Part shown: positions 4,795 through 63,300 of the stretch, piece after piece
How the letters are laid out: each line of letters begins with the position of its first letter
Numbering within the stretch: the stretch's first letter is position 1
Assembly: GCA_963693305.1 (NCBI GenBank)
Contig: OY855905.1
Location: 4,929,201 to 4,993,200 of the forward strand
Reading direction: 5' to 3'
Origin: Meandrina meandrites
Lineage: Eukaryota > Cnidaria > Anthozoa > Scleractinia > Meandrinidae
DNA length: 64,000 nt
Made by a program: the position numbers and the translations under genes
Notes under the pieces: model-generated
The model's database searches: none
Told to the model about the DNA's origin: nothing
What the model saw: the letters and a program-made list of their open reading frames with translations, nothing else

Positions 4795-7070
4795 ATGGAG
4801 ACCTTTGAAAAGACGAGCTTTCTGGAAGTTGCAGTGTTTTCAGCTCTAGTTAAAGATGAAAAGAAGCTTGTGATAACTACAGATGAAGTTAACACATTAC
4901 GCAGTTTGCAGGAACAACTTAATGAATTTCAGCGAAAGCTGTGCCAAGACGCTCTGGTAAGCTAGTAATTTCATTGCTCACAAACTTATTATTCTGTTAC
5001 GATTACCCGTTTCGGTTCAGCAAATACAAAAATACAAGATGTAAGTTCTGCTTGGTCCCGAAATATTAGATGTCTTAGAGTGGAAAGTCTTAAGACTGGA
5101 TAAAAATCGCTCCCTTCTGTGAAATGTTCATTAAATTATTTTATATTCTAAAATGAAAGTTATTATAGTCCACATTTCAGTGCAAACATCCTTGTCGTTG
5201 TTGTTAACGTGATTAATTTTACTTTAAGAATATCGATGCGTAGAAAATCAGTCATAAAACAATTACTCATGTTGTGGAACGTTTCGAGGAAATGTTAGTT
5301 TAATTTCCACCAGATGTAAACAATCAGTTTACACTTGGTGATTAAAAAAAGGTTTATCACATTGTTTATTTGATATGTAGTCTAATAAGTTCAGTTTGTA
5401 GATTTCATGTTGACTTTAAAGCAATTTGCTTTCTTTTTAATAGGCACCATTACTCCAGAGGCACGGATTGAATACTGAAATAGCTACATTGTTGCAATTT
5501 CATGAACTCAGAAAATCTCTCATAAAAAGGGTAAGTGCGATTGTCTCGTGAAATGTTTTAAATATTTTATAGCATCAAGCGCGTGCATTTTCTTAGCAGG
5601 GGAATTTCCCTTATCAGTGAATTATATATTGCATCATGGCATTGCATCATTCATTTGAACATTTGAAGCCACCGTGACCGACTTAGGAAGTATATTTTAA
5701 AACTATGATAGGCTGAAGGTGTCACTTTCGTTTTCGATTAATTTATGATGCCAGTGGCTGGCTTCTAAAGTGAACGTGAACTCTATCTCTTTCTATTCGA
5801 GAACCAGAAGTCTGCGAGAACTGAATATTTGGAAAACAAGAAGTGAAAATAAAAGAACGTCAATTGGTAAATATGATTATCATTATATCGCGAGGAGCTA
5901 ATCGTTAATTATTATATATTCACAATTAATTGCTCAACACAGGATACAGACGCAGGAATCATGGAGGATTACCTTCAGCGCTTCCGGTTATTTCACGCGG
6001 CTGTGGGACTGGTGACTAAGAGTGCACCTGAGAAGGGACAGGAACTGAGTCAGGACATCGAATCACTGCTAAGTGATATGTCGAGTGTGATCTGGAGAGT
6101 GGTAAGATTATCTCCTTTTTTCTTCTTGTTCATTTTTCTTTCCCTATCTTTGTTTGCGATTTCTTATCGTTATCTTCAAAATTTTTGTTGCGTTTTTATC
6201 CACGATTGTTCAAAATCGTACGCGTTCTTTTTGAAAATATCGAGAGGTGTATGGTGCTCGTTTCCGTTCATATTTGAGCCATAAGAAACGTATATATAAT
6301 AATTGTAGATAAATGATAATAAAAAAGTATTGCGGTTTGTATTTGCGGTAATATTTAGTATAATAATTATACATTTCCATTTATCAACCTACAGCTCAGA
6401 AAAAATGACATTTTTCCTCCTGCACCACCACGACCAGGACATCTGGAGGGACAGTTCGACCAAACTACCAGGAAATTTCTGGTAAGATTAAGATCTGGCT
6501 TCACATGTGATAAAGTGCTTTAGGTGCTTAGCAACTTCCGGTTTACAAACATAAAGAAAACCGGAAGTCATCTGTCAATGTTTTGACTTTGTACCGTTTA
6601 GGCTAGTGAAACGTGGAGTGTGTAGCGTGAAATGTGAAATGTGAAGTGCAAAGAGTGAAGCTCCTTTTAGCCAAGAATGCCACTTGTTTGGTATCCCATA
6701 CACTGATTGTTCACTCATAGACTTAAGCTTTTGGGAGCCTCGCATTAAAAAAAAATCCTGATAATTAACAACCCTTTTACATAAATCACTGTCCTTACGC
6801 GAAACAGAGAGTTTTGTTTCCTCTTGGCAAACCACATTCATTGCTGTGCAGTGATTGGATTAATAATATTTTTCCTTGTAGGAGGAAATCCTTGGTGAAC
6901 ACAACGAGGAAAACGTATGGATGGCTGGAATCACAATTGAAGAAGATTTCACTGACAACGACGAAGTCAGCTTGAAAACAATTCATGACGTCAGAAATTA
7001 CGTCATCGTTAGAGATCTTTATTACATGTTGATGCAGTTCCAAAGAAATCTTGGCCATCTGATTGGTTGA
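4795..7070 (+). CDS. CNTF-like four-helix cytokine candidate A (5 exons)
   Basis: Exons 4795-4956, 5444-5530, 5943-6101, 6395-6481, 6882-7070; all four introns are GT-AG and phase 0; 227 residues. ATG 4795 sits in a good context (AGGATGG). Exon 1 ends in an amphipathic helix (~30-54), like helix A. Exon 2 has HGLN followed by an acidic residue, resembling the AB loop of CNTF. Exon 3 holds two helices: the first has LQRFRLFHAA, matching the LQ-x-[YF]-R-x-F-H pattern of CNTF helix B, and the second (~114-136) matches helix C in hydrophobic spacing. Exon 4 is a proline-rich CD loop. Exon 5 has an acidic stretch and then a helix ending QRNLGHLIG, like helix D of CNTF, CLCF1 and CT-1. No signal peptide and only one cysteine, as in CNTF. 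The FxxK receptor motif is not evident. Similarity is from memory, so the family call is tentative; the gene model is firm. Confidence 0.8.
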
Positions 7071-7127
7071 CTTCCTTTTCACTGTCAGGACGGAAAGGGT
7101 CCTTTTGTGAAGATACAAAGAACACTG

Positions 7128-7160
7128 ATTAAATTAAATTAAATTAAATTAAATTAAATT
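7128..7160. repeat. (ATTAA)n microsatellite
   Basis: About six copies of aaatt, just 3' of the first cytokine-like gene and probably in its 3' UTR. Confidence 0.85.
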
Positions 7161-7437
7161 GCGAAGCATTATCAAACGCGCGTCTTCAGCAAAAATATAG
7201 CTACGTAGTAAATTATAGCTTTTAAAAACATCGTCTATCCTCGCTTATCATCGAGAATCAATATTGAAAGCAAGTAAATATTATAAGTAAATATTATAAG
7301 TTATTTATAATATGTACAGTAAGAAAGTAACCTGTTAAAGTTCTAAGATGTTGTATATAACTAGAACTATGCTCAGAGCTTTATCTATTCATCCAGACAT
7401 TGGTCAATGCTTCTTTATTATAAATAGAATATAATTC

Positions 7438-7832
7438 GAATACAATAAAAACCCGCGAGTAAGAACCTGCATTTTCCCAAGTTAGCCTAAACAGATTCTT
7501 GCATAATTAGCACAAATTTAGGCTAGTTAGGTTCTTAATAAGTTCTTATTTTCTGCATGAAGAAACTTTATAATGATGCTAATAGAATTTGTAATGTATT
7601 CCGCCTTTTCCTTTTATGAAATTTGCATACCTAATAAGTTGCTATAATAACATAAAAATGGCAATAATAGAAAACTATTGAAGCATTAATCACATGAATT
7701 TTGAATTTTAATCGATTTTAGAATATAAAAACCTGTTTCCAAAGTTTAGGCTAAACAGGTTTTTATACTAAGGGAGTCTAAATGGCCAATTTTAGCCTAA
7801 CAGGTTCTTACTCGCGGGTTTTTACTGTATTC
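7438..7832. mobile_element. 395-bp MITE
   Basis: Terminal inverted repeats of about 32 bp: gaatacaataaaaacccgcg on the left and cgcgggtttttactgtattc on the right. The repeated words aggctaa and aacaggtt lie inside. No coding potential. An AATAAA lies in the left terminus and could serve the upstream gene. Confidence 0.75.
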
Positions 7833-8167
7833 AAAGATGGTCCTCTCAACGGAGGCATTTAAGTCTATACAGACACATATCTTTTAGAATTAGGCTCAAA
7901 TTAATACAAGATTAACTACATTTATAAAGGGCATATCGTTACAGAGGATTATAAGTTTGGGAATAAAGTTGAAATAAACATTTGTTGTACATGCCATATC
8001 AATTTCCCTATTTTAAATTCGTTTTCAGTAGCATGATGATATTTTAAGTGCTTCCGTCACGTTTGGTCACGGAATTGCTATTATTCAAGAGTCAACGACG
8101 CGCACACACAGGCGCGATGGTTTGGCGGCTCACTTGACTCCAACCAGCCAGTTTGACTTTTCTCAGC

Positions 8168-8604
8168 TACAGTAGAGCCCCTATTAAGCTAGCGCAATCT
8201 GGTCTCCCCTAAAAACGACTGCGTGGGAGGCCACCCTCGAGGAAATGTCAAGATTGGCAGCTAAATAGGGGTTCGTCAGAAATTAGCATAAGGCCATTTA
8301 AAAAGGTTACGGTATTTCAATACAAACTAACGTGAAAAGGAATAACGGAACCACATGAAACGACAATAAGCCTGTGTTTGAATGATTTTGTCAGCCGTCA
8401 CTGTCCGAGCTTGTTCAAAATAAATCGAAACATCGTATATTACATTCTTACTAAAAACGATAGAAAAGCGCTCATCTGGACGGCAAAAATGTAGCTGCGC
8501 TTAAAAGGGGTTTTACTGACAATACGTTTCGCGACTTTAGTAGCTGGCCTCTTAAATAGGGGGTGGCCGCTCAATTGGTGGCCGCTTAATAGGGTTCGAC
8601 TGTA
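8168..8604. mobile_element. pogo/Tigger-like MITE with TA target site
   Basis: Begins TA-cagtagagcccctattaag and ends cttaatagggttcgactg-TA. TA duplication and CAGT termini fit pogo/Tigger non-autonomous elements. The interior repeats the words ggccgct and aataggg. Confidence 0.65.
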
Positions 8605-8810
8605 TTTCCAGTATTTAGTTTCCGACACATTCAGTGATCAAACAAACAAGAATTTTTGCAAAGGCGATATATGCCTTTAACGTTTTCACGCCTTACCGGC
8701 TCTTTGCTTCAATTCCTACAAATTATGTCAAATTTTTAACGAACGATAACAATCAGAGAATAAAGTTAAACCATCAACCTGGAGAAAGTGATATTTACGG
8801 ACACCCGACA

Positions 8811-9181
8811 TTAGGGAGCTTTAGCAAACTACGACAGCAACGGCAACGAGAACGTCGAGAAAAGCCCAATGTGTAGAACCATAGCTCTACATTGACTCTG
8901 CATGTGTGTTTGAAATCTTGGCCCATTTCCTAGTCGTTGTTTTCGAAACAACAACGTGAAATGACTAAATTCTGCTATTTTTGACAACGTGAACCACGAC
9001 GGCTAAGTTTTTTTTCTTTTTAGGGTTGAACGCTCTATTTCACTTTTCATCTAGAGCTATAGTTCTAAAAAGATACACTGAATACATCTGGATTGCTGCG
9101 TGATTCTCAAGTAAATTATAAATTCATTTTTTAGTAGCCGTTGTCCTCGGCGTCGCCGTCGTCATTGCTAAAGTTCCCTGA
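8811..9181. mobile_element. ~370-bp MITE
   Basis: Left terminus agggagctttagcaaactac, right terminus gtcattgctaaagttccct; the arms stay complementary for about 40 bp (acgacagcaacggcaacga against gttgtcctcggcgtcgccg). No coding potential. Confidence 0.65.
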
Positions 9182-9189
9182 TATTATGT

Positions 9190-10450
9190 TTTATGAAACA
9201 GCGACATTAGTTTGCAAAACTTTAAACTCCATATGATTTTGTTTCACGGATTTTAGCCAAATTTAGGCATGGGAAATGGCCATAAAATTCGGTGAAATAT
9301 AAAAATAACCGCTTAAAACAGTGAAGGAACATTTCACTAACACAACACAGAAATACAAAATAAGGTACGGATGGCGAAAAGTGAAGAAGATTGAATCGGA
9401 TTGCGATATGGGTTTTTGAAATACTGTTGGGTTGAACAGTTTTCAAGGTTAATCTCATTTGCTTGTAACTTTAAATTATAATGCCCGGGAGACAAATTTG
9501 GTGGTAATGAAGCTATGGTTTTGTCATTTAGATCCATAGAAGAAAGTCTTGAGAAACATTAAAGTATTTGGCAAAACTTAATAAAATAAACTTAACTCAA
9601 CCGTGACATACCCCCTTTGATATTTAAATTTTAATTTCTATGTTTAGAGGATACGATTTTCCAATAACCTCATTGTGGCAGCTAGAAAGAGTGGATTTAT
9701 TATCTATTCCAACTTTCTGACAAGTACCGTGTCACTCAAGCTAAGGTGAATCATCTTCCGCCAATTGACGTGACACTAAGTGATGTCACATGGGCGAGTC
9801 TATTTCATTCAAAACAGGAACGCGATTCAAACAGGAAGTTTAAAATGTTCCTTGGTCCACAGGTAATACTACCTTCTATCAAATAAATCAAATCAGTTTC
9901 ATTTTCCTTCTCCTTTTCGTTCTCTATAATGGCGGTCCTGGATAAATTTTGAGGAATTGTAGCATTATTTTTGGATTTTAATTTCTCGGTAGTTATGTGA
10001 TATGGTGACTCAACCATAGTAGGACGCGTCGCAGATTCCCGGAAACACAGGAAACTGAAATTCACTTGAATCGAAGAGATCTATTTTTGTGCAGCTCAAA
10101 TTGAATAAAGTCCACTCTGACACGACCTGAGAGAACGAGAAAATCAACTGCTTAAAATAACTAAAATAAAAGTGAAATTAATTTTGTTCATCGAAAAACC
10201 TCCAGTAATTTTGGCGTATTCAATACTATTAAATAGAAATAATTCAAAATAATTCAAGCCGTTTCTTTTTATTTTTCGAGCAAACGGAGTGTTTTTGTAA
10301 ATCTGCTTATGTTTTTTTTATTGTGACGCATGCTGATCAAACCTAACCCAAAACTAACCCATTATTTTCCTAAAACACGACGGCGTTGATGTTCCGTAAT
10401 TAACTGGGTTTGTCCTTGATAAACATCCCGTGACTATAACGGTGGTCAAC
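9190..10450. other. Intergenic between the two cytokine-like genes, no gene recognised
   Basis: AT-rich, with only short open frames on both strands. No splice-linked coding pieces or clear repeat were found. It presumably contains the promoter of the second gene; no TATA box as clear as that of the first copy is present, only caataaatac near 10511. Confidence 0.4.
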
Positions 10451-10621
10451 GGTCAGTTATCATGGCTTATTTACATCTTTGGGTTTTTCCCTTTCGCACC
10501 CATCCCGGGTCAATAAATACCCTGCTAGTTGCAGGGCGTTCATATTCTACAGATCAAGACTTTAAGAAAAGCAGCAAAGATTCGATCGACCTCGAGCACC
10601 AAACTACAATATACATCAACC

Positions 10622-13073
10622 ATGAAAGACCAAACGAAACTGCATTTCGCTCCATCTGAAGTACAAACTTTCCGAAGCCTATGTGACGAGTTGGATCGCT
10701 TACAAAAGGAACTTCAAGATGAGCTGGTAAGAGAGCCGAGCTGTTAAGAATATACAAATTAAATTTTCCTATAACCGCCACGCACTCCACTATCGCGTGT
10801 TGTCTTACATATTCAGTTCAATTTAGCAACAAAGTATGAATATTAAGTGAGTTATATGGAGTTTATCTTCTTGTACATTTTGTCACAATAAACATGGCAT
10901 TTGTGGGCGTTTATTTATTGCAAAAGTGAAGTATTGGGTGTCAGTTTTAATTTAATAATTTCTTATCAAAATACTCAGTGCAGAGGTGAGTGTAGGTAAA
11001 TATGTTTTACTTATTTTATTATTTTTTTCTTAACAGAAGCCCGAGTTACCTCACCGTGTACAGGATCATATACAAGCTTTACACTTTAAAGAACTCACAA
11101 ATTCTACCATCGATAGGGTAAGAGCGAAAATGAATTTACAAATCTGATCGCTAAAATAGCTTTCACGCCAGGCTCATAATTGAAAGGAAAACGGCTACTA
11201 TTTTCTTCGCTTAAACTTACTTCGTGTAAATCCGCAGTTCTATAAACCGTACTCTCATCTACCTTTTCTTCCATTCATCTTCTGAATCGTGCTGAATATC
11301 CGGTTTGATCGCTTGATCGGAAACGTTGCGTGATTCGCGTGACCAGTGCTAATTTTTGCGTTACCGAAAAGTTGGTTGGCACGCGAACCGCTTGTTGCGC
11401 CCGTGTTAGGTTTTCATTTTTAAGGAGGAAGTAGAAAGAAGGTTGTAATATTTCCGCTTTTCCTTGCTGTTTGTTAAACTGATGTAAAACCAATGTTTGA
11501 TCAACATGTCAATCAATGAAAATCATTTTTGCATTATTTCTACACAGGCGACAGACGCGGGAGTACTTAGTGACGATATGCAAAGGTTCCTAAGATTTGC
11601 AACGGCCGTGGAAATGGTGACTAAGAGCTCGAGAGATGAAAAAATACAGAATCTAAGCCAGCAATTAAAATCAGATTTAATTACCATCGCAAGTTTCATG
11701 AGAAAAGTGGTAAGTTGAATTATATTATTAGTAATTTCAGTTTCGTGAAAGAAATCTCACGATCTCATGTTTGCCCCGTGCAACAGATTACAGATTAATC
11801 AGTACACGCAAAAAAAAAAACAAACAAAAAAAAAAAACCGTCAGTTTTAGTAACAACTAGATAACGCCGGGTAGGTGCGGCGGCCTAACGGTTAGTGAGC
11901 TGGCCTCCGGATCGAACGGTCTGGGTTCGAGCCCTGGCCGGCTACAGGTATATAAAGTCTATAAATGGGTAGACACTACGTAGAAATGAAAAACCTTAAC
12001 TGGACAACGACATGATAGAGCCCAAACTGAAAGTCAAAAATGCAAACTCTGGACAGCTGTTTCGACCTGATTGGGTCTCGTCAGCAGAGTGTATGCCGCA
12101 CAGAATAGAACAACTAGCGTGAAGACAGTTGTCTATTCAGTGCTCGGGATAATGACGATCCGAGTGGGCTCAAATTCGAAAGCCCGCCCATTGACAACAG
12201 CCGCGTGACTATTACTCAATAGGTAAAGAATTCGAAATATCATGTCGTTGTCTCGATGTTTCTACGTAGTGTCAGCCTTGCAGTTTATCGTCTTTGTATT
12301 TTATTTTTGGCTGATCAGAGCTGTCAGTAGCTCCTACGTACACCAGCAGCATTTTCGTCCGCGGTCCCTTGCTTTCAGTTGACATTATAAATGGGTACCG
12401 GCGAATTTACTTCAGGGGGTAACCCTGCGATAGACTAGCATCCCATCTAGGAGGGAGTAACGCTCGGACCTGATGGGCCACTAGGCTCGTATGCAGACTT
12501 TACTTAGACTACTCTGTAGAGCCCAGGTTTTGGATGATGAGCAAGTAATCAGCCGGGTGGGCTTATCGCTTATAAGAATTCAGGGCGAGTATCCGGAACC
12601 GGTTGAAACCACTCTTAACAGCGCAGTAAAAAGCTGCATTTTTGTGTATGTTAAGGCAAAAAATCAAGAAATAACCATCACATGAAGCATTTATTTGATG
12701 TTGATGAGATTTCTAGCCTGACTTGCTGTTTCTCGTTTATCGCAGTTGAGAGAAAACGGTATCTCGCCACCACATCCACAAGACTTAAGTGGGCTAAAGG
12801 ATCGGCTAGACGAGTTAACAAGGTCGTTCTTGGTAAGAGAAAAGTAATTTAAACAAAATTTGGCAATTGATGCGTATTTTTTTTTCACATCTATTTGTCT
12901 AATGTTCGCCTTTTCTTCGTAATTTATAGAACGCCTTCGAGGAGATCGACAAGGAAAACACAGAATGCAGATTCGAAGAATCAGTCGTGGATGATGTCAG
13001 AAATTACGTCGTCGTTCAAACATTGGTTTATGTGATGTTGCTGTTTAAACGCGATCTTGGAAATCTCATATGA
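10622..13073 (+). CDS. CNTF-like four-helix cytokine candidate B (5 exons, paralogue of A)
   Basis: Exons 10622-10726, 11037-11117, 11548-11709, 12746-12832, 12930-13073; all introns GT-AG and phase 0; 192 residues. Same architecture as the gene 3.5 kb upstream: exons 2, 3 and 4 encode 27, 54 and 29 residues against 29, 53 and 29. Shared signatures are EV-x-T-x-RSL in exon 1, TDAG and VTKS in exon 3, LR-x-N-x-I-x-PP in exon 4, and DVRNYV followed by LG-x-L-I in exon 5. The final helix (VMLLFKRDLGNLI) aligns without gaps to helix D of CNTF and CLCF1 as I recall them. The N-terminus is about 20 residues shorter than in copy A. No signal peptide; two cysteines. ATG 10622 is the first in-frame Met. 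AATAAA at 13093 and 13356. Clearly a tandem duplicate, well diverged, so selection on both is likely. Confidence 0.8.
11868..12480 (+). mobile_element. tRNA-derived SINE with a second element inserted in it
   Basis: Pol III A-box-like cctaacggttagtgagc and B box gggttcgagccc lie at about 11886-11938. The typical coral SINE tail (gggtaaccctgcgatagact, agcatcccatctagg) lies at 12415-12455. Between them an insert of ~410 bp is bounded by a direct repeat, tataaatgggta (about 11961 and 12384), a likely target duplication. The whole sits in intron 3 of cytokine-like gene B. Confidence 0.65.
11973..12385. mobile_element. Element nested in the SINE
   Basis: Starts gacactacgtagaaat and carries the inverse (tttctacgtagtgtc) near 12260, with a second inverted pair aacgacatgata and tatcatgtcgtt. 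The flanking 12-bp direct repeat marks the insertion ends. Confidence 0.5.
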
Positions 13074-15915: not shown

Positions 15916-18900
15916 TAAATGGAGAGAATTGGTAAAGGAAACTTTCTACGTAAAGAAAAACAGGGGTCACCAGGCATCTATGAGAGTTAAATCATCGCGA
16001 AGTTATCGCAACGGCTACTCACCCTATATGTGGTTGGGAAGTTTCCTCAGCGCGCACACTCGATGCATGACGTGGCGTAACGTTGCGACAGGAATTGCGT
16101 GCGCAGTAAGGATGCGCATAAACAATTAGCGCGAACGTCCTTAAGCCTAAATACATACCCCTATCATTCAGTTCTAATGTATTTCATATTTTGCATGTGT
16201 GACACTAGTTTTCCGAAACTTTGCTGTTATGTTCCTCTTGTTAATTCGATTTATATTTGGAAAACCGTGACCTTCTTATGCGTTACTAGCTTCACACATG
16301 TATAAGGCACAGGCATTCCATTTTCCAGCTGCAGATTGATCATGGGGCTCTCAGGCTAAGGGATTCTGTAGGGGGGAGGGAGGGATACTCAAGAATATTT
16401 TATAGTTGGGGGGGGGGGGGGGGGGGCTCTGTCCCCAGGTCCAAAGTCTAACCCTTTTATATACCAGTTTTGACAGAATTTAAGGTTACCCTCTCATATA
16501 CCAGTGTCTTTGATAGAAAATGATACCCCCTTACTCATACCATGGATAATGCCCTTAAAGAGGGGGACATTGGGGGTCGCTGAACACTGCATTACCGCAA
16601 AAAAATTTGACAAATACCGCAATACCGCAAAAAAAATCGGAAAATACCACAATTTTATAGTAAGCCTGTATAGCTGGTGGATTCCTTGACGCGAGAGCAA
16701 AAATAGAGGCAAAAACGAGCGGTGGGACCATGGAAACAATGGCACGGCCTTAAACGGGTTGTTAAAACAGTCAAATTGTAGATTAAAATGTGTGACAAAA
16801 TAAGGCCGTTTCAGGGTGCTTCCGAAACGACCAAAAACGGCTATAAATGGTCTGAAAAAAGTGAAGGATATGTTTTCATACCAACTATCGCATCCCGCAG
16901 GTTTGGAGAATACCGCAATACCGCAATTTAAGATTAAAACAAGAAGTTGCTATAGCAACTTAAAACCGCGCTTATATTTTTGGCTCATTAACAGCTTTCT
17001 TTCTCAAAAGTCACGGTTAAATTTAATCTGTTTGCATTATGCATGAGTAAAGGACTAGCAAAGTAGTCACGTTAGTCACACAATCCGAGGTTTAAGTTGT
17101 CCCCGGCTATCTTTAGCTTAGGGGTTTTTCCCTTCTAATGACGTAACCCCTGCACGTTCGGGCACGCTCAATTGTTTACTTTAGCAAATATTTCATTTCC
17201 TTTCAAATCTTTGAACTCACTTCGATGAAACAGCCAAAGAATTCACTTCGATTGCCTAAACCCACAAGAAATACTCGCAGAAGAGGAAACAAATTAAATT
17301 AATGACCGTCGCTTCTGCCAACGTAAACATGCAAATAAAACACAATGTTATTTGTCACGTAATGAAAGTGAAACCTGCAACATCAGCGCATTCCATGGCT
17401 GATGTAATACCTTTTTTCAGCGTATTCAACATTCGCTTTCAATCCAACGCTTCGATAAAACCAAAAGAAAATATACTTTATACACAATAAAGAAAACAAT
17501 ATCCGCAACATTTTCGGTACATTACAGTCGAAACCGAAGAAGCGTGAACGCCAAAAATAATTTCTGGAATGTTTATTGTTCTACAACCAATCAGATTTGA
17601 GACGTTACCGCAACAGTAATTAGCAAAAAGGTTTCGATTCTTTTATCACGAAACGACTTTTTCGTCTACATTAAGTCTTGAGATCACCACCGATTAACAA
17701 ACACTCTGGAATTATTACAGTCAAAATACTCAGCGCGTAGTATGTGCCGCTTAGAATTCCGGAAAAGTTTTGATTAACGGCGAACGGATGGCATTATTGG
17801 TTTCAAACATTCAAATTTAATTTGAATATTGTAGATCATCCAACCGTGAACACGTGAACACGTGAGCCTGTCAGAAATGAAGCAATTTGATTGGTTTATT
17901 TTTTACAGGTTCACGTGCTCACATGTTCACTGTTGGATGATCTACAATATTCAAATTTTAATTTGAATGTTTGAAACCAATAATGCAATCCGTTCGCCGT
18001 TAATCAAAACTTTTCCGGAATTCTAAGCGGCACACGCTGAGTATTTTGACTGTAATAATTCCAGAGTGTTTGTTAATCGGTGGTGATCTCAAGACTTAAT
18101 GTAGACGAAAAAGTCGTTTCGTGATAAAAGAATCGAAACCTTTTTGCTAATTACTGTTGCGGTTTGTTGCGGTAACGTCTCGAATCTGATTGGTCGTAGA
18201 ACAAAAAACATTCCAGAAATAATTTTTGGCGTTCACGCTTCTTCGGTTTTGACTGTAATGTTTCAACAGCTTTTGGCGAATAAACATCATAGGTTGCGTG
18301 ATTTCAAAGCCCCAATCACGATTTGGCCGAGTGGAGGTTTGGGTCTGGTCACCGACAAAAAAACGAAAAAAAATAATAAATCCCGTGTAAAGCAAGAACT
18401 GCGCTCGGCCCATGGCCGCGCGGTTAATTACCGAAATACCGCATGAAAAATTGGCCAATACCGCAATACCGCAAACCCCAATGTCCCCCTCCTTAAAGAT
18501 TTACTTAAATCAATCATTTGGGGTTTCGCTCAAAATATTCTGTGAAAGGCTCTTGGATAAAATACCACATCCAGTTTTCCCTACCCTGTTCTATACTTCA
18601 ACCTGTGAATTCACCACTACCCTTTAATAAAAAAAATTTGCAATGGTGTATTGCAATTCCTGAGTTTTGATTGGTTAACAGGCAATGGTATATAAGCTCA
18701 TGATATACCATTGACCACAAATATCGTAGCCAATAGGCCTTGACAAAAACAGTTGGGTAGCACAAATATTGCAGTTCTTTTGGCCATTGTTAAATATAAA
18801 ACAATTATTCCACTTGCGCTTGTTGGATATGAGATTGTTATAGCCAACGCGGCGCTATGCCCCTTGTTAGCTATCTATCATTTCATATCCAACTTTCCCT

Positions 18901-28600: not shown

Positions 28601-28612
28601 CGCGAGTCTCCA

Positions 28613-28682
28613 GTGGCTCAGTGGTTAGATCATCCGATTTAGAATTCGGAGGGTCGTGAGTTCGAATCCCATCTGGGGCTCT
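28613..28682 (+). other. tRNA-like sequence (probably SINE-derived)
   Basis: A-box region ggctcagtggttaga and B box gagttcgaatccc. An acceptor-like pairing ctccag / ctgggg is present and an anticodon stem tccga / tcgga surrounds an 8-nt loop. The odd loop and mismatches in the D and T stems argue against a working tRNA. Confidence 0.4.
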
Positions 28683-39170: not shown

Positions 39171-39259
39171 CATGTCCAATACTGGCCATGAAATCCCGGG
39201 TTTCTACACTTCATTCTCCTTCCACACTTCTTAATGTATAGAAGTAAAAAGTACTCTGA

Positions 39260-40562
39260 CAAACTAGGGATTATCATGACCTTTTCCCCAGTCATTCTAC
39301 CCTTGTCATTCTTTACTTAGTTCTACACTTCTCAAGTATGGAAGTGTAGAATACTCTGACAAACTAGGGATTATCGTGACCTTTTCCCCAGTCATTCTAC
39401 CCTTGTCATTCTTTACTTAGTTCTACACTTCTCAAGTATGGAAGTGTAGAATACGCTGACAAACTAGGGATTATCGTGACCTTTTCCCCAGTCATTCTAC
39501 CCTTGTCATTCTTTACTTAGTTCTACACTTCTCAAGTATGGAAGTGTAGAATACTCTGACAAACTAGGGATTATCGTGACCTTTTCCCCAGTCATTCTAC
39601 CCTTGTCATTCTTTACTTAGTTCTACACTTCTCAAGTATGGAAGTGTAGAATAGTCTGACAAACTAGGGATTATAATGACTTTTTCCCTAGTCATTCTAC
39701 CCTTGTCATTCTTTACTTAGTTCTACACTTCTCAAGTATGGAAGTGTAGAATACGCTGACAAACTAGGGATTATCATGACCTTTTCCCCAGTCATTCTAC
39801 CCCTGTCGTTCTTTACTTAGTTCTACACTTCTCAAGTATGGAAGTGTAGAATACGCTGACAAACTGGGGATTATCATGACCTTTTCCCCAGTCATTCTAC
39901 CCTTGTCATTCTTTACTTAGTTCTACACTTCTCAAGATTCTCAAGTATGGAAATGTAGAATACTCTGACAAACTAGGGATTATCGTGACCTTTTCCCCAG
40001 TCATTCTACCCTTCTCATTTTTTACTTAGTTCTACACTTCTCAAGTATGGAAGTGTAGAATACGCTGACAAACCAGGGATTATCATGACCTTTTCCCCAG
40101 TCATTCTACCCTTGTCATTCTTTACTTAGTTCTACACTTCTCAAGTATGGAAGTGTAGAATACTCTGACAAACTAGGGATTATCATGACCTTTTCCCCAG
40201 TCATTCTACCCTTGTCATTCTTTACTTAGTTCTACACTTCTCAAGTATGGAAGTGTAGAATACTCTGACAAACTAGGGATTATCATGACCTTTTCCCCTG
40301 TCATTCTACCCTTGTCATTCTTTACTTAGTTCTACACTTCTCAAGTATGGAAGTGTAGAATACTCTGACAAACTAGGGATTATCATGACCTTTTCCCCAG
40401 TCATTCTACCCTTGTCATTCTTTACTTAGTTCTACACTTCTCAAGTATGGAAGTGTAGAATACGCTGACAAACTAGGGATTATAATGACCTTTTCCCCAG
40501 TCATTCTACCCCTGTCATTCTTTACTTAGTTCTACACTTCTCAAGTATGGAGGTGTAGAATA
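39260..40562 (+). repeat. 100-bp tandem array, left arm (~13 units)
   Basis: Units of exactly 100 bp (phase points 39360, 39460, 39560, 39660 and so on) contain gacaaactagggattatc, ccttttccccagtcattcta, and an internal 11-bp inverted repeat, ttctacacttc-tcaagtatg-gaagtgtagaa. One unit has a small duplication (ctcaagattctcaag, ~39930). Units differ at only a few positions. Confidence 0.95.
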
Positions 40563-42004
40563 TTACTTGTGATTTCAGGTGAAATATCTCGGAAAAAGTG
40601 AATGCAAGGCTACGTGGGAGCCAAGCGATTGTTTACCAACGAAAATAATTGAGACATACAAAAGTCGACTAAACACAGTGGTAGTGGCTATCAGTAAGAA
40701 ATATAGTGGCCAGATTTCGTCTACTTTAAAGTTATCCATAGATGATCAATACCGTGAACCTCCAGAGAAGAAGACAAAGCAATCCAAAGTGGAAATACCA
40801 GACGAAGGGTAAGTGTTACTGCATGGCGGTCACCAGAAAGGTAAAAGTGTATCATTTCACACGGTTTGAATCTCACCGCAGAATTTTTGCAAGCAAGGAC
40901 GAGGAAGCAACAACTGCCTGCAACACAGAAAAAGATCGTGATGCAAAGCAACGAAAAAATGACCGCTCTGCAGGTATTCAACAGTGACATAAGTATAGAT
41001 GATGTTGATGGTTAGGAAGCTTTATTGTTTAATATACTGTCAGTCTGCTTCCTGTAAAATTCAATACTTTTGCTTAAAGTTGTTTGTAATTTGCTGAGAT
41101 ATTTACTGTGAACTTTTTTCCTGTTATCATGTAGGAATACTTTGTATTATGTCGCCATGTGGAGTGCCGGATTGTCCGGTGCGCAGAACTGTTCTGCTCA
41201 GAATCTAAAACGCAAGTTTACGCCATCTTACACGACGTGATAAGACGTAACGAGAAGCTGCTCGAAAACTTGAGTAAGCTTTGCGATCCAACCATGCATG
41301 AAAGGTTGTTTGTTATCAAGCAGTAATGAACTCATAACGGATGTTTCACTTAACAGAATGTACTTCTGCCTTTCAGGATATGTCATTTATGATGACGGTT
41401 GCCACTTGAAAAAATTTGCACAAAATCCATCTCGAAGGGACGTCACTGAAACGGCCAAAAGACTGTCGGACGTTTCCATTGTAGTAGATAAAATGCATAT
41501 GAAGGGCCACAAAGATCGATGGTGCAAAGAAAACTGTGATGCACGCAATATAGAAGATCTCAAAGAGGTAAATATTGATGAAGAAATAATGGTTTACTGT
41601 AATGATAACTATTAAGCGAAAGTCATTTTCATGTTACAACCGATCATCTCAAATATTACTTATCGTTCCTTTTTTGAAATGATAGTACTCTGTTTGTGTT
41701 TTACCTAAATATATAATATAAAATAATTTAACGACTTACTACTGAAATCTTGTACACCAATGCTAAATGAATATTTGGCAACCAAAGCGTTAATTCCGAG
41801 CACTAATTCTCCATAATTTCACGAAATACAATTTTTACACAAATGTAGTAATGATCACTTTAATGTATATTGAATTTACAGGTGGACAATGAAGTTTGCG
41901 AACAGACCTTTGCGTGGTTGTCCAAGTATGCTAAAATGACAAGAAAAATGAACAGAGAGCATTTTGTTTTCTTGACAATCTATTTGCAGCACTTGCATAA
42001 CGTA
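40563..42004 (+). pseudogene. Transposase exons: chromodomain half and C-terminal catalytic part
   Basis: Exon-like pieces with good splice ends: ~40579-40808 (YLGKSECKATWEPSDCLPTK, the second half of a chromodomain), ~40880-40974, ~41135-41271 (FVLCRHVECRIVRCAELFC), ~41378-41567 (GYVIYDDGCHLKKFAQ, then HMKGHKDRWC) and 41881-42002 (VDNEVCEQTFAWLSKYAK, then MTRKMNREHF). The DDGCHLK, H-x2-GH-x4-WC and N-E-x-CEQ-x-F-x-WLS motifs recall KDZ-type transposases (memory). The first piece begins at an acceptor directly after the repeat array, so the N-terminal part is missing or lies in or beyond the array. No single intact frame, so the copy is probably defective. Confidence 0.55.
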
Positions 42005-43504: not shown

Positions 43505-44990
43505 GTATGTCAGAGTACTCTACACTTGAGAAGTGTATAACTAAGTAAAGAATGACAGGGGTAGAATGACTGGGGAAAAGGTCATGATAATCCCTAGTTT
43601 GTCAGCGTATTTTACACTTCCATACTTGACAAGAGTAGAATGACTGGGGAAAAAGTCATTATAATCCCTAGTTTGTCAGAGTATTCTACACTTCCATACT
43701 TGAGAAGTGTAGAACTAAGTAAAGAACGACAGGGGTAGAATGACTGGGGAAAAGGTCACGATAATCCCTAGTTTGTCAGCGTATTCTACACTTCCATACT
43801 TGAAAAGTGTAGAACTAAGTAAAGAATGACAGGGGTAGAATGACTCGGGAAAAGGTTACGATAATCCCTAGTTTGTCAGCGTATTCTACACTTCCATACT
43901 TGAAAAGTGTAGAACTAAGTAAAGAATGACAAGGGTAGAATGACTGGGGAAAAGGTCATGATAATCCCTAGTTTGTCAGAGTATTCTACACTTCCATACT
44001 TGAGAAGTGTAGAACTAAGTAAAGAATGACAAGGGTAGAATGACTGGGGAAAAGGTCATGATAATCCCTAGTTTGTCAGCGTATTCTACACTTCCATACT
44101 TGAAAAGTGTAGAACTAAGTAAAGAACGACAGGGGTAGAATGACTTGGGAAAAGGTCATTATAATCCCTAGTTTGTCAGCGTATTCTACATTTCCATACT
44201 TGAGAAGTGTAGAACTAAGTAAAGAATGACAAGGGTAGAATGACTGGGGAAAAGGTCATTATAATCCCTAGTTTGTCAGAGTATTCTACACTTCCATACT
44301 TGAGAAGTGTAGAACTAAGTAAAGAATGACAAGGGTAGAATGACTGGGGAAAAGGTCACGATAATCCCTAGTTTGTCAGAGTATTCTACACTTCCATACT
44401 TGAGAAGTGTAGAACTAAGTAAAGAATGACAAGGGTAGAATGACTGGGGATAAGGTCACGATAATCCCTAGTTTGTCAGCGTATTCTACACTTCCATACT
44501 TGAGAAGTGTAGAACTAAGCAAAGAATGACAGGGGTAGAATGACTGGGGAAAAGGTCATGATAATCCCTAGTTTGTCAGAGTATTCTACAATTCCATACT
44601 TGAGAATCTTGAGAAGTGTAGAACTAAGTAAAGAATGACAGGGGTAAAATGACTGGGGGAAAAGTAATTATAATCCCTAGTTTGTCAGCGTATTCTACAC
44701 TTCCATACTTGAGAAGTGTAGAACTAAGTAAAGAATGACAGAGGTAAAATGACTGGGGAAAAAGTCATTATAATTCCTAGTTTGTCAACTGAGTATTCTA
44801 CACTTCCATACTTGAGAACTACACTTCCATACTTGAGAAGTGTAGAACTAAGTAAAGAATGACAGGGGTAAAATGACCAGGGAAAAGGTCATTATGATCC
44901 CTAGTTTAAGAGAGTTTTCTATACTTCTATACATTAAAACGTGTGGAACTAAGTAAAGAATGAAAATAGTAGAATAGTAGGTGGTAAGGT
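43505..44990 (-). repeat. 100-bp tandem array, right arm (~14 units, inverted)
   Basis: Same 100-bp unit as 39260-40562 in reverse (agtgtagaactaagtaaaga, tgactggggaaaaggtcat, gataatccctagtttgtc). The outermost units near 44880-45000 are more diverged. One unit carries a duplication (cttgagaatcttgagaag, ~44600), the mirror of the variant in the left array. Confidence 0.95.
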
Positions 44991-45316
44991 CGTTATATTC
45001 CCTAGTTTGTCATAGCTTTACATGCTTCTATACATTAAGAAGTGTGGAAGGAGAATGAAGTGTAGAACCCGGGATTTCATGGCCAGTGCTGGACATATGT
45101 GAATTTTTCAGAAAATTTTCAGTTTTGTAAACTTTGATGAATCAAGATTCACTGTTCTTGATTTTTCTGAAAAGGAATCTACAGCTTATTCAGTGAGATG
45201 TTCAAATACTCAACGTTAGAATTATTTCATTGTTTATATAGAAGCACAGAATTGGGAACTGTTCTGGTCATTGTCCAAACTGGTTAGTTGGGTTTACTGG
45301 TGTCGTGCAGAAGAGG

Positions 45317-54300: not shown

Positions 54301-57300
54301 TGTTCAGCTTAGGTTTCTTGTTTCTGACTCTCAATCTGGCCGTATTCGCGTATTAGCATTTATGTAACAATGAAAGTTATTTTCACTAAACAGTAGACTC
54401 GAATTATTCACCAGATGTCGTCGAGAGCTTATTATTCTCTACATTATTTTCGCTAATTTTTATTCTCTAATGTTTTGTTATTGGCCTTAGATCTGAAGAA
54501 AACAAAACAATTGGTCCATTTGGTGAAAAAAGCACATTTGATGATCTGGGGGAAACTCTGTCCATAGATCAAATAAGCAGCCAAGCACCAAACGTTGGCG
54601 ATGTAATCACGGCTATGGGCCTTTGTTCGTCACGACCTAACAACAGGGGAGGTGCTGGATCTGTGCTACTGAGAAACGATCCTCCAGCAGGCAGTCCTCA
54701 GTTTTTACAACTAAAAGTTGATATCCGAGCGAACCCAAATTCAAATGTTCGGACGAAGTACATAGTGGGGAATGTGCTCAATCTTCAATTTGGAGATGAG
54801 CTTGTCATCCGAGGGCGAGTGGAAGCACTTGACGATGGATTCAAAAGCAAAAGACAAGGTTTTAAAATTCTTCCATTTAAAGTTGTCGTTGATTCCGATT
54901 ACCACGCTGCTGTCAAGAAAAAAGTCGAAAAACTAAAACCACAATTGTTTCGACAATTCTCAACTCCTTGGCCTATAACCTATGGACTTTTTCCAGCGGA
55001 GTTAGACTCACAGCCCCTTTGGCTAGGTAATAAGCTTTTGAAAGATAAAGATGTAATTTGGCTACCTCCTGAAACCAGTCAACAGAAACTTAAAGAATTT
55101 GCTGTTGCAGCAAGGAATTGCCGAACAACTGACATATTGGTGGGTGTTAAGCCAGATGGTAGCCTTATTGGTACTAAAATGACAAGGGAAGAAGTTGGAA
55201 CGAGGAGAGAACTGTTATGTACATCAATCAATGCCATACTTCCATCCGGTGACCGTGCAATTAAATATTGTGAAAACGCTTCCGAGGCTACAAGTTTGGT
55301 TGCAGATGGTAAATCATCGTTTGTCGCCTTTATGTGGTTACAGGACCGCAATGATAACTGCAGTGAACCGTTCGAGGATGACAGCATTAGAGTGGTGATT
55401 CATGTTCACGTCGCAAAAGGAGCTAAACCTTTGTATTTCACGAAACAAGATGATACACATGCGTATGTTCGTGAGGTCACAAGTACACAGAAACTGACCG
55501 ACTTTGATGATTTACTCAGCCGACTAGAATCATTAGCTTGGCGGAACATTGCAGAAATAAACATTCAGCAAGAAATAGACAAGGCCTCAGTATTTATGAA
55601 GTGCCCAGAAAAGTATGAGCTTTTCAAACAACTTCACTTAGAAAGTAACCAAAGGGAATTTAAGGCCATCTACGGAGATCCCAAAGATATAATTTTGAAA
55701 GACTATGTTGCTAAATATACAGCCGCGTTTTTGAGCACCGAAGGTGGTGACATTTATTTTGGAGTAGAAGAAGACCAGAAAACGAAACTCGGTCATGTTC
55801 TTGGGGTGATCTTGTCAAGTGAAGAGAGAAAAGAATTATTAAGAGAAAGCGCGAAAATAGTGTGCAATTTCTGGCCTCCTGTTCACAGCAGCCAGTTTTT
55901 TATTAGATTTGTAGACCTCGAGTGTCAAGGTGGCCTTTCTAGACATGTACTGAAATACCCAAAAACATCTCAAAAGGGACAAGGCATACATATTTTACTG
56001 TCCACTGGCGAACAAAAAGCGGAAGAAATACAGAAACTCGCAAAACAAATTACAAGCAGGTTACAGCCAGGAAGTGGGAGATTGTCATTATTGCGAGTTG
56101 GACCTTCTCGCTACTGTTTAATAAGTGAACAAACAAAATCGGTTAATACTGAACAACTACTGGCAGACCTAGAAAAGGACCACAACTTCATGTCAAAGGT
56201 GAAGCTAGAAGAAATGGAAGAAGCAGAACTGGTCAAGGTGTCACGAGACCTATGTGTAGTGCATTTAAATGTCAAGAAGTCTCCATATCCGATTCATTTG
56301 TGTCATCCTCCCCATACCTTGAGGTTTGCTCCCAGCGGAGAACTCCAACCAATGCTGCCTTCAGATATCTTGGAACGTTTTAAAACGAGCAAAAGCGAAT
56401 TTAGCATTGAAACATTTCTTCGTTCTGTTGATAATTTTGACACAGGGTTTAATTCATTTATTTTAATGGCTTCTCCGCTCAAGTTTTATAACGAAGAAGA
56501 CATATATGGTATGGTGATTCCAGAGTGGCTTTTGGTCCTTGATTTTGACCAGCATCCGCACGAGAGTGGACATCTATTCCATGTCTTCCAGAAACAACAT
56601 GACCTTCACCAGGGAGAGAGGAACCTCTATCTTAACACACCTCTTGATCGCAAATTAAACATCAACCCAGATAATGGCACTAGTTGGTGCGCAGTTAGGG
56701 GCTATCAAGAACTCGCTCATACCCTTTCTGAAGGTAGCCATGGAGAATGGAACATATCACATGGGCAAATGGTTAAAACACATCTCAGTGATGAGCTTAT
56801 TGTCCAGGTAAATCCAAACCACCTTGTTGTTGTTTGTCTCTGTGATGAGGATCACGAAGATCTCCTACCATCTATGCAATTACTTCTGGAACACTTATTT
56901 TCCATCTGGAAAAGGACAACTATAATTTTTGTTTGCCCAAGTAGAGGTTCAGAAACTTTAATGATGAAAAAACTTATACAACCTCTTCATAACAGCTATG
57001 GAAACAGAATAAAGAAGGACAATGTTTTCGTCGTGTCACCGCAACATCTTGCCCGTCATCTTGCAGTAAAGCTCCCTGCCCCTTACTGCCCTGAAAATGC
57101 ATTTCAAATACCAAAGAAATTGCGTCTCCCTGATGGCGACCGCTCAATTCCAGAAACTCTTCCACAGAATATCAGACAAGCAGTGCATGGCCATTTGCAG
57201 ATTATGTACCTGAAAACCGGTATGGCAGCAACTCCTGAGGAGGTAGAGAAAGCCAGAGAGGACTTTTACTCGGGATCTGAGATAAGTTCTGTTGCGCTTG

Positions 57301-60300
57301 CTAATGGAATAGGTATTCATCGTCAGAAGATGAAGGAACTTAAGCGAGAACTCAAAGTTATGCTTAACGACAAAAAGTCTCATGTGTGCATGATTGTTCT
57401 AAAAGCTGAGCGAGGATCTGGCGCAAGTACCTTGAGCTTGCAGTTCCTTTACGAAAATCATGAAAGATTTCCCTGTGCGAAATTGATTGAGTTTCACGAC
57501 AGTCTTGTCACGAATATTGAAAAAATAAATCAGCACACTAAACTTCCCCTATTACTTTTTGTGGACAGCGAAATGGCCAGTCTTCAAGACTTCACAGATT
57601 TTAAAAATGAAGCGGAAAGAAGAAATCTTCATATGGCTCTCATTGTTGTTGAATCAGAAGTCTTCTACAGCACCAAAAACACGACAGGCAAACAAGGCCG
57701 CGGTAAAGGAAGGAGATCAAAGTTGACTGCAACACCATATTCAGCTGGTACAGCCCCTTACCAAATTGTAGAGCTAAGCCGTGAACTTGAGAAAATTGAA
57801 ATTCCCCACTTGGTTGACCAGCTTCGCAAAATAAAAAGTATTCCTGAAGCCAAGGAAGAACAACTAAAAGATCTACAGAAGAAAGCTGGAACTGAAAGCA
57901 GCCTTCGAAGGTTTGCCTATTTCAGTTTGACTATATTTGGGAAGAAATACACTGGTCTCGCTGATTATGTGTCTTACCGATTGAGCAAGTCCAACGAAAC
58001 TGAAGCAGAGATTCTGGAATTTCTTGCTTTGACCCACGTTTATACAGATTACCGTTTTCCAGTGAATGCGTTGGCTGGAATGCTTCAGACAAAAGTTGTT
58101 ATTTTGGAAAGTGTGTTTACAAATAATGATGTTATAGAGCTCTTGAGCCCACCAATTCAAGGAAAAGGCGAAAGAAGAATATCGTTTGGTGAAGTTGCAG
58201 AGGAAATTTTGAAGCAAAGAGCAGCAAAGAAGGAGATGCAATTTGACATCTTTTTAAGTGACCTCGCCCTAAGAATAGCAGAGAAAGTTCTTGCAGTTAG
58301 AGAACCGAGCAAGATGCTAGATCGAATCACGAGGCGTCTGTTTGTTACAAGTGAGTATGAAAGTAAGAAATTTTCTTCCTTGGTGCGCACATTAAAGGAC
58401 TATAGCAAGGATACTGCCCGTGATACAATGAAAGGCCTCGTGACTACCTTTCAAGAGGGCACGTCGATGTGGGCTCACCTGTTAGCTCATTTGGCAAAAT
58501 TTCATATGATAGAGTACGGTGCTTTTGACGAAGCTTCCATTTGTATCGAGAGAGCACTTAAAGAGCAACCTGATGATGTCCTCCTGCATCACATACGTGG
58601 TGACATCATACGTCTCCACATTCAGAATTTAAAAGAAAAAGAGGATCTTGACGTTAAAGAAGTGCTCAAACATGCCATAGTCAGCAGTTCATGCTTTCAA
58701 AAGGTACGAGAAAAACGTCCGTTGATGGAATATGGATACACATCAGATGCTTTGGTCCGACGTATCGTTATGCAAGCTGTTGTGAAGACCGTAGGTGCAG
58801 ACGGCCTTTTTACGGATTATTTAAACAAATTTCTGGAGGAGATGAAAGGCTCAAGTTATCGAGATCCTCTTCAAGACGAAGAAAAGTTTATCCTTGCCCT
58901 CATTCCTGACGCCTTTGAATTTCTTCGAGATGTAGCTGTCAGTGAACACACTGACCAACTAAAAAAGTCTTTATTAAAGGAAATGGGAAGCCTGGATGCA
59001 GTAAAAGGATTTTGCAAGAACTTAAAATGTCAAATGAAAGAATCTCGTGACTCTGGCTGGATCGATGAGGTGGTTAGGCGCACAACAAATCTCGTGAACA
59101 TTTTGGAAATGGAAACCGGTAACTTGACGACTGAACAGATAGATGAATGGATGTCAAACTTAGAGATGCACACCAAGGTTGGGCATGATGAGCATTGGAT
59201 GAAGCTGTGGATACGCTACAGTAGAGCTTCCTCTAAAGTACCTTCCCTGGTTAGCGTGCAAAAAGAGATTGAAGCTTGGATGGCAACGGCAAAAGGATTA
59301 TCGCTTTATGCAAACTTTTACAAGTAAGACATCATCTAAGAAATTTAAGAACCCATCCAAAAATCAATCACTTAAAAATATGAAAGTTGATTTTACTTCA
59401 GGAAACATCTAATGGCAGCGATACAAGTACTGCCAGAACAAGTATAAGCCACAATATGCCAGTTTTGTAGCATTTATCAAAAGAACATCATGGACATATT
59501 TTGTTCCAGAGAATCAATCGGCAAACTAAATAAACGCTAGAAATATGTTGCCGATATGTCGGTTTTATTTATACATATATTTTAAATATTTTCTCAGGGC
59601 AACCCCTGTCAGTTTTATTGTAGATATAAATGGTACCGTTTGAGTTTTTTCGAATTTTTCATATATTAGTCTTCTGGGCATTACACGTCATTATGCAAAA
59701 AGTTTTCCTTTACCTTGTATTTAATGTATCTTTCTTTTTGTATTTCAGTTACGTAATAGCGGTTCTCATAGCCCTTAAAGATCCTACTGACAAGGAGAAA
59801 ATGGAAAAGGCATGTAAAGCGATCGAGGAAATGCAGCGTAAACGTTATGTGAAAAAGCCCGGGACCGCATCTCAAGTACACTCTCTTCCGCTGGAGTGGC
59901 TTCATCCTAAAGAGGGTAGACATATCAACTCAGTTGACTCACTACTTCACCACGAAGATCTAGTCAAGGAGTACTTAAGCTGTAGCTCTAATACATCGAT
60001 TAGGCAAACTCGAGTCGGTCGTGAAATAATTGAACGAGCTCTCTTTGAAAGAGACATAAAAACTTTTCAAGGAGAAGTTGGCGGTATTGATGCAGACTGG
60101 AAAGGCAAGATTTACTTGAAGAATTATATTCCTGTGCATTTTATACCCTCCAATGTCACACCAAGTATGCCTTCAACTGGTGATACAGTGAGATTTGCCT
60201 TGTCATTTGGATTGAATGGTCCTCAGGCTTGGGCTGTTGTTTGTCAACCAGGCATGGCCAAGGCACGTAAAGCAGAAAACATTCGTCCTGTAAAAGAATT

Positions 60301-63300
60301 GGATACAGAGGATCAAAGTTCAGGTCTCGAAAGCTGTGATGAGGACGACATTGAAGTCCATGTAGAGAAGCCGTTATATCGAAAGCATATACCGCAGCGA
60401 AGTCAGTCTGACTGGGAAGTACATGTTGGCAAATCGCTTCAAGGAATTGTGTCCTTCACTAGCAATAAAGGATTCGGATACATCCAGAACCCAGCTATCA
60501 AAGAGACGTTGTTTTTTCACGCGTCACAGATTGTTCCTCCAGTGTCATCACTTAAAGATCTTCCAAACAATGCTGTTGTCTCTTTTAGTGTTGACAAAAC
60601 GGATAGCCGTGGATTTAGAGCTACGAACGTCCAACTTATAAAGGTATTTGGTATTGCTTGGTAGTGTTCTTACTGCTAAAGAAATGATTTCAGTAACTAG
60701 AATAGTTAAGGCTTTGATTTTTTTTACACAAAGAACAACCAGTGGAGATTTTATCTATCTTCATTTTCTGAAATTGAAAATGTAACACTCCTTTTACGTT
60801 TCTCACATTTCTTTTACGTTAAGCCCTGCGCCGAAGAACGTTTGTGTCCCAAACCCGGGCAATTTTTTTTCTGAAATGTTTCTGTTGTTCAATCTATTTT
60901 GTTTATTTTTGGTCGCTTCCGGTTTTAGGATCAGTCTGCCGTCTATATTTTTTGCATATTGAAAATATTTATCCATCTCGCATAACCAGATCAAAAGCTT
61001 TTTAATTGTCATGTGACATTCTTTTTCTGATGACGTCACAAAACTACAATGAGCGACAAAAGTAGTTGAGACAGGTGGTTAAAACGTGTGCCAATTCCGA
61101 TATTTCCATTATTCCACTTTAACTCCCGTGCAGATTGTGAACCACCCCGTCTCCCCCTGTTCAATGTTGTACTGGAACAAAGCAAGTATTACAGATAGCA
61201 AATCCAACATTTTTTGAGGGGGAGGGGGTTATATCGAAGAGGTGAGGGATAAGATGTGTCCAAGGTACCCAAGAAGAGCGGAGTGTCTCAACATTTTGGC
61301 TACTTATTAGCCTTTTATTCCATAATTTGGACGTGATTCAAAGGCGGATTGCCGAAGGCTTTAGTATGATACGTAAACCAAGGGACCAAAGATATCCAAT
61401 TACTTTCCTATCCCCATTTGTGTCTTAAAATAAGTTTCAACCGTTAATTAATGGTAGCTTATAAGTCAAGTAACCAAACCTTGAGACAAATGAGTTATTT
61501 ACATTGTTAAAATTGGTGATAATTAGTGTCCAACGAGTCTTAGGAAGATGCCACAGGTTGGACAACAGCTAGCTATTGAAATAAAAATATTCCAATTGAA
61601 CAGGTGAGCCAAGCCTTAATTGGCATGCGAAACCGTGTTTCTCTTACTTTGTCTGAAAGGATTTTGATGCCTACTTACCCGAAATAAAACAATACCTAAA
61701 GGACATACAAGCCGATGAAGAGGAACGTTCCATGGCACCGACCAAAATCCAGTAAGTGACATTATCAAGTTACTAGTAACGTTAAGACATCTAGTGATCA
61801 ATCGGCCTCAAAATATTTAGCCAAAGCTATCAATGAAGTTGTTTGCCAATGTTTATCTGTTACATTGTACAAAATTTAACAACTTATCCAGTGACATGTG
61901 AAGTCTTTCTACTAAATTTAATTCAATTCACGACGTTGCTTTGAAAGGAGGTTGTTTATGAGGTCTGTCTTTTTTATTGAACCAAACCTTCAAAGTCCTC
62001 GCATCAAGTTGATTCAGCTTTGAGCCTCGGAATTTCTCAAGTAATATTTGGAATACTTGGACTCTGTATATATCATTTACACAGCCCCTGGAGTTTGTTG
62101 TAGAACTTGAATTAGAACCTGTTAAAGCTTGGTGTTTCCTCTTAATTAATTAACTTGTCAATAATTTAAAGTATTGTATTGTAAAAAAGTATTGAATTGT
62201 TAAAGCTAACTGGTCAATGATTTAAAGTATTGTATTTTATTGCCAGTAGGCAATCAAGTAATATATTAAACACATTTCCAAACACCCAGAAGAGGGTTGA
62301 AAATACGACGCGCAGTGAAGTATTTTCGATGAACTTGAGGTGTTTGGAAAATGATGAAACACTCTCTCATGTGTTTGATATATCTTTTCATTCTATACTA
62401 AAACCACAGTCACGTTTCATATTTCCTTTTTTAACTAGTTTAAAAAAGAATAGTCAATAAGATCAATGCTCCAATTTTAAGGCAAAAAGTATACTTTAAA
62501 TTAAACCTTTGAAAATTATCTTTTCTCAAGTTTTGTGATACGTTGTTAGTTAATGCTGTCCCTCATAGGGTGGTCATATAAGAATATAAAATCCAATATG
62601 ACCTTTAAGCTAGTTTTCTGAACTGTATAAATTGGTTATTAATAGAGACCAAGCTAAAGTGATGAAACTTTCAAGGCAATCAGGCCGTCAAGAGGGAAAA
62701 GTAGTTAGCTTGCTGCCTACTCCCGAGAACGCCAGCTATGGCTTTATAGAGGTCACTGACACATCTGATCAAGTATTCTTCCATCAACGCGAGTCAGAGA
62801 TTACAGCTTCAGACATGAAAAGAATATCAGTGGGAACAAAAGTGCAGTTCAGCATTGCTATAAACAGAAAGGGCGACAAGTACATTGCCAAAGATTTTTA
62901 CATTCAGGTTAGTGTAGATCAGAAGCACATAAGCAAGAAGTTTACATCTAGTATTTGGGCCCCTGCTACGTCTTTCGTGAGAAGGCTATTTTTAGAACAA
63001 ACCTTGCGCGCGAGAAAATGATGTAGTTTATGGCGTGCACGTGCACGTGCAATCATGACGTGCACAACAATGAGATTGTTGCAAATTTTTGCAAGTAAAA
63101 TTATAGCATTCGGTCGCTGTCGTAATTGGTTTGTGAGGGCACTTAATTTTGGCGGACCATGAAAAGAAATATAGCAGAAACGGGCGAATTTTTTTTCACC
63201 ATGAGCCCGAAGAAGGTGTTTGTCAATAGCGATGCTTCAAAAAGGGTAGTCAAGACGAAGGAACTAATTAGGCAAATAACCACTTCTAATCGACATATCA

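Follow-up and report, generated by a model that had tools for sequence, protein, structure and literature searches.

A 64,000-nucleotide stretch of the stony coral Meandrina meandrites (the window; contig OY855905.1, positions 4,929,201 to 4,993,200) carries two tandem genes, here called copies A and B, that encode related helix-rich proteins. The contig is 49.8 Mb long, in a 551-Mb genome of 56 contigs. Copy A (4795-7070, + strand) encodes 227 amino acids and copy B (10622-13073, + strand) encodes 192; the two are 42% or 47% identical, according to the alignment used. Each gene has five exons, and every exon length is divisible by three. The eight introns all have GT-AG borders and lie in phase 0, and joining the exons gives an open frame in both genes. 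No other in-frame ATG lies between the nearest upstream stop and the start of either copy; a separate upstream coding exon is possible. These features, with the adjacent-locus relatives described below, bear out the tandem five-exon pair reported in a preliminary description made from the sequence alone, and the observation is real.

Helix assignments rest on predicted models of two relatives from the protein search described below, by homology to P0003 for copy A and from P0004 for copy B. In copy A, exon 1 (4795-4956, + strand; 54 amino acids) opens the frame with an N-terminal tail and most of helix A and ends at a GT donor in phase 0. Exons 2 to 4, each bounded by AG and GT in phase 0, encode the end of helix A and the loop between helices A and B (AB loop), with RHGLN (5444-5530, + strand; 29 amino acids); helices B and C, with LQRFRLFHAA (5943-6101, + strand; 53 amino acids); and the end of helix C with the CD loop (6395-6481, + strand; 29 amino acids). 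Exon 5 (6882-7070, + strand; 63 codons including the stop) follows an AG acceptor and encodes the end of the CD loop and helix D, DVRNYVIVRDL...NLGHLIG, before the stop codon. Copy B, on the same strand, is divided likewise into helix A (10622-10726; 35 amino acids), AB loop (11037-11117; 27 amino acids), helices B and C (11548-11709; 54 amino acids), CD-loop helix (12746-12832; 29 amino acids), and helix D, DVRNYVVV...RDLGNLI (12930-13073; 48 codons including the stop). Intron 3 of copy B also holds a type I hammerhead ribozyme on the - strand (RF00163, 51.6 bits; 12046-12090).

Both proteins are acidic (isoelectric points of 5.1 for copy A and 5.2 for copy B) and contain one and two cysteines, respectively. 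By eye, no clear signal peptide was seen in copy B, in the third paralogue described below, or in the relatives from Oculina, Desmophyllum, Orbicella, Montipora, and Pocillopora. In copy A, residues 9 to 19 form one moderately hydrophobic stretch (mean hydropathy of 2.28, with a Glu inside), which is not clearly common to relatives P0001 and P0003. The earlier statement that the proteins are leaderless and nearly cysteine-free holds for the cysteines and, by eye, for the leader in copy B.

A third intact paralogue, gene C (207 amino acids), lies on the same contig at 4834395-4839042 on the - strand, about 95 kb upstream of copy A. As in copies A and B, it has five exons, and all of its introns are in phase 0. 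It is nearest to Oculina protein P0007 (80% identical). Among the 24 flanking 10-kb stretches, one (L002, 5195-9842) holds gene C. The remaining 23 gave no convincing copy; their best matches, one of 21 amino acids at E 0.005 (L023) and one at E 0.015 (L014), were read as chance. Candidate further copies inside the window were likewise read as chance: the tblastn matches at 46069 and 42008 are weak and contain in-frame stops, and the one at 18469 (30% over 47 amino acids, E 0.046) was missing from a second listing.

Relatives were sought in a collection of 5.8 billion proteins, which gave 31 distinct proteins (P0001 to P0031), including P0011, the protein read from the window itself. Since this search finds only relatives that share short exact words, absence of the family outside the listed corals is not demonstrated. 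The rows that name an organism come from Oculina patagonica, Desmophyllum pertusum, Orbicella faveolata, Montipora capricornis, and Pocillopora meandrina, which are stony corals. Database names for the relatives are uncharacterized, hypothetical, or unnamed. In Oculina and Desmophyllum, A-type and B-type relatives were predicted under adjacent locus numbers (ACROYT_G004672/G004673 and OS493_015110/015111), which supports the gene models externally. Four relatives (P0008, P0010, P0018, and P0030) are full-length, uninterrupted frames on contigs of 951 to 1399 bases, shorter than the window genes, and are best read as spliced complementary DNA. In a tree of 17 rows, the 7 B-type sequences separated from the 10 A/C-type sequences with full support.

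The predicted models of P0003 and P0004 are four-helix bundles with long helices and long AB and CD loops, laid out as helix A, long AB loop, helix B, short turn, helix C, CD loop with an extra helix, and helix D. In structural comparisons, CNTF was the top match to both models, at about 10% identity. The best 50 rows of each list were all long-chain class I cytokines aligned across nearly the whole core, and no other fold appeared among them. The up-up-down-down order was taken from the structural alignments of these predicted structures rather than from coordinates. Comparison of structures thus upheld the proposed likeness to CNTF at the level of predicted fold, and the models place the coral proteins within the long-chain class I helical cytokine superfamily.

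The exon plan, whose intron positions come from the DNA and whose helix limits come from the models, agrees with this placement. In IL-6 and growth hormone, introns lie where helix A ends, where helix B starts, and where helix C ends. All 12 introns of copies A, B, and C are in phase 0. In each gene three of four fall at those places, and the additional one lies in the CD loop. Placed on the models, the introns of copies A and B precede the end of helix A by 3 to 6 residues, the start of helix B by 3, and the end of helix C by 3, with the additional intron inside the CD-loop helix; the intron columns of the two copies are identical in the alignment. Measured against IL-6 intron and helix positions, the coral introns deviate by 2, -2, and -1 codons. 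Of 2 million random placements of four introns, 0.13% hit all three places to within 3 codons, phase uncounted. A passage of PMC12327624, which credits the rule to Betts et al. 2001, describes three phase-0 introns as conserved across four-helical cytokines; they set off helix 1, the element after it, the pair of helices 2 and 3, and helix 4. The coral genes have this intron arrangement of the long-chain class I helical cytokine superfamily, plus one intron more.

No cytokine family (CNTF, LIF/OSM, IL-6, or others) was listed in Pfam for 14 members at E <= 10, so the profile match looked for after the preliminary description did not appear, and a sequence search of the PDB returned no cytokine. 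Other matches were set aside as weak and partial: Pfam K-box (E 0.0058) and GPP34 (E 0.013), each in 2 of 14 members, and the PDB entries for a chain named THR2 (E 0.046) and F-box/LRR-repeat protein 5 (E 0.24). A 16-row coral profile was also aligned by hhalign with the single cytokines CNTF, CLCF1, G-CSF, and IL-6. CNTF scored best (19.9 over 19 columns, 37% identity), pairing TDAGIMEDYLQRFRLFHAA with TEAERLQENLQAYRTFHVL at the start of coral helix B. This score was reached by 5 of 200 shuffles that kept the hydrophobic pattern and by 3 of 200 full shuffles; the corresponding counts were 28 and 5 for CLCF1, 30 and 18 for G-CSF, and 45 and 36 for IL-6. Because four cytokines were tried, the resemblance of the profile to CNTF is suggestive only, and the shuffle counts make letter-by-letter resemblance alone weak evidence. 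The motifs likened to CNTF in the preliminary description, LQRFRLFHAA in exon 3 and HGLN in exon 2 of copy A and QRNLGHL and KRDLGNL close to the respective C termini, are all present and lie in the expected helices; given those counts, they do not prove kinship.

According to a passage of PMC10022904, ligands of the gp130 family bear either Phe-x-x-Lys (FXXK; LIFR) or Trp (gp130) at the start of helix D, and site 3 of CNTF lies at that end of the bundle. The FXXK of the LIFR-binding CNTF/LIF subgroup is absent from all 16 coral rows, and the Trp of the gp130-binding ligands IL-6, IL-11, and IL-27 was found in none of the 16 in the stretch examined. A nearly invariant DVRNY stands at the start of coral helix D instead (V, R, and N in all 16 rows, D and Y in 15), and gene C, which is outside those rows, has DVRDY. 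Because CNTF site 3 occupies the same end of the bundle, DVRNY may make a different sort of receptor contact. Around the likely position of the AB-loop Trp (site 1, W64 in CNTF; shared by CNTF, CLCF1, and IL-27 p28), the coral family usually has FxEL, and P0031 has W. With neither FXXK nor Trp at helix D, the family should not be classified as CNTF. Of the CNTF/gp130-type identity first proposed, the superfamily holds as far as prediction goes and the subfamily does not.

These data suggest, with a probability of roughly 0.7, that copies A, B, and C are members of a stony-coral family of homologous, leaderless, long-chain class I helical cytokines, which would share an ancestor with CNTF, IL-6, G-CSF, leptin, and prolactin while being a member of none of those subfamilies. 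Each gene would produce a small leaderless four-helix bundle. Given the lack of a clear leader, the protein would leave the cell on damage or by an unconventional route, as CNTF does, and would then probably engage a class I type receptor on cells nearby and signal through STAT. A broader proposal, that corals have their own working class I cytokine system of multigene, leaderless, damage-released long-chain ligands, homologous to the ancestor of IL-6, G-CSF, leptin, and prolactin, that predates the cnidarian-bilaterian split and may act on the receptor CRLF3, is put forward only tentatively.

The same features could be read otherwise. The proteins might have a cytokine fold, by descent or by convergence, and act inside the cell without a receptor, for example as small helical adaptors or sensors. 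Their acidic, cysteine-poor composition in copies A and B would suit such a role, as would the lack of a clear signal peptide in copy B, gene C, and the relatives, with only copy A moderately hydrophobic at its start. But CNTF, the closest structural match, is itself leaderless, and both the exon plan and the fold agree with those of secreted ligands, so we consider an intracellular role unlikely. Less probable still is true membership in the CNTF/LIF/gp130 subfamily, with a gp130- or LIFR-like coral receptor. CNTF did come first in both structural comparisons and among the four cytokines in the profile comparison, the LQxF/YRxFH and HGLN-like resemblances point the same way, and the AB loop of Pocillopora P0031 reads QWDEL, against QWSEL in CNTF, where the family usually has F; the start of helix D speaks against this assignment.

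Finally, the bundle could be an ordinary helical one to which AlphaFold, working from shallow alignments, gave a familiar cytokine shape. Two runs concurred on the fold and on the top family, with no rival fold in the best 50 rows of either, and the exon plan, read from the DNA (with helix limits from the models), agrees. Such an artefact is very improbable, and homologous coral cytokines remain the best explanation of the locus.

Other features of the window lie apart from these genes. Upstream of copy A, a frame of 418 amino acids with a sulfotransferase domain (PF00685, E 6e-12) occupies 842-2098 on the + strand. A tRNA match (RF00005, 38 bits) is present at 28607-28680 on the + strand. The same minisatellite of about 100 bp occurs in opposite orientations at 39220-40562 and 43553-45049, flanking about 3 kb, and between the arrays an open reading frame at 41274-41615 has no Pfam match and contains a Cys/His-rich stretch that resembles KDZ-type transposases. 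An uninterrupted frame of 1618 amino acids (54471-59327, + strand) matches SLFN_AlbA_2 and an nSTAND NTPase below the curated cutoff, and we take it to be SAMD9-like; two cold-shock-domain frames adjoin it (59630-60664 and 62614-63021, + strand).

The open-access literature searched, which leaves out most subscription papers and preprints, yielded no description of a class I helical cytokine ligand from a cnidarian. The portion of PMC13203501 consulted, a BLAST-based survey from 2026, gives IL-6 family cytokines in vertebrates only. If the coral genes encode helical cytokines, this ligand class may be older than the back-boned animals, and both its age and the search for early ligands can be put to the test in living animals. 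Fold and exon plan together would then be able to detect cytokines that are invisible to sequence searches.

Among known systems, the coral proteins most resemble CNTF, the top structural match for both models and the best of four cytokines by profile; CNTF is likewise cysteine-poor, and it has no leader. They differ from it in having five exons where the CNTF gene has two, an extra CD-loop helix in the models, about 10% identity, and a helix D without FXXK. With IL-6/G-CSF/prolactin-type genes they share the fold and phase-0 introns at three places, where helices A and C end and where helix B starts. In contrast to those genes, they have no clear signal peptide, only one or two cysteines (copies A and B), and an extra phase-0 intron in the CD loop, and their helix D begins without a Trp. 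Most class I cytokines have a signal peptide, and CNTF is without one. Passages of PMC13203501 describe Unpaired as insect JAK/STAT ligands and report STAT in Coelenterata; as to JAK in cnidarians, the paper's results and discussion and a source it cites do not agree. CRLF3 is an orphan class I receptor found from cnidarians to mammals and without a known natural ligand, according to passages of PMC6797617 and, likewise for cnidarians, of PMC12409108. As a receptor rather than a ligand, CRLF3 is a possible partner of the coral proteins.
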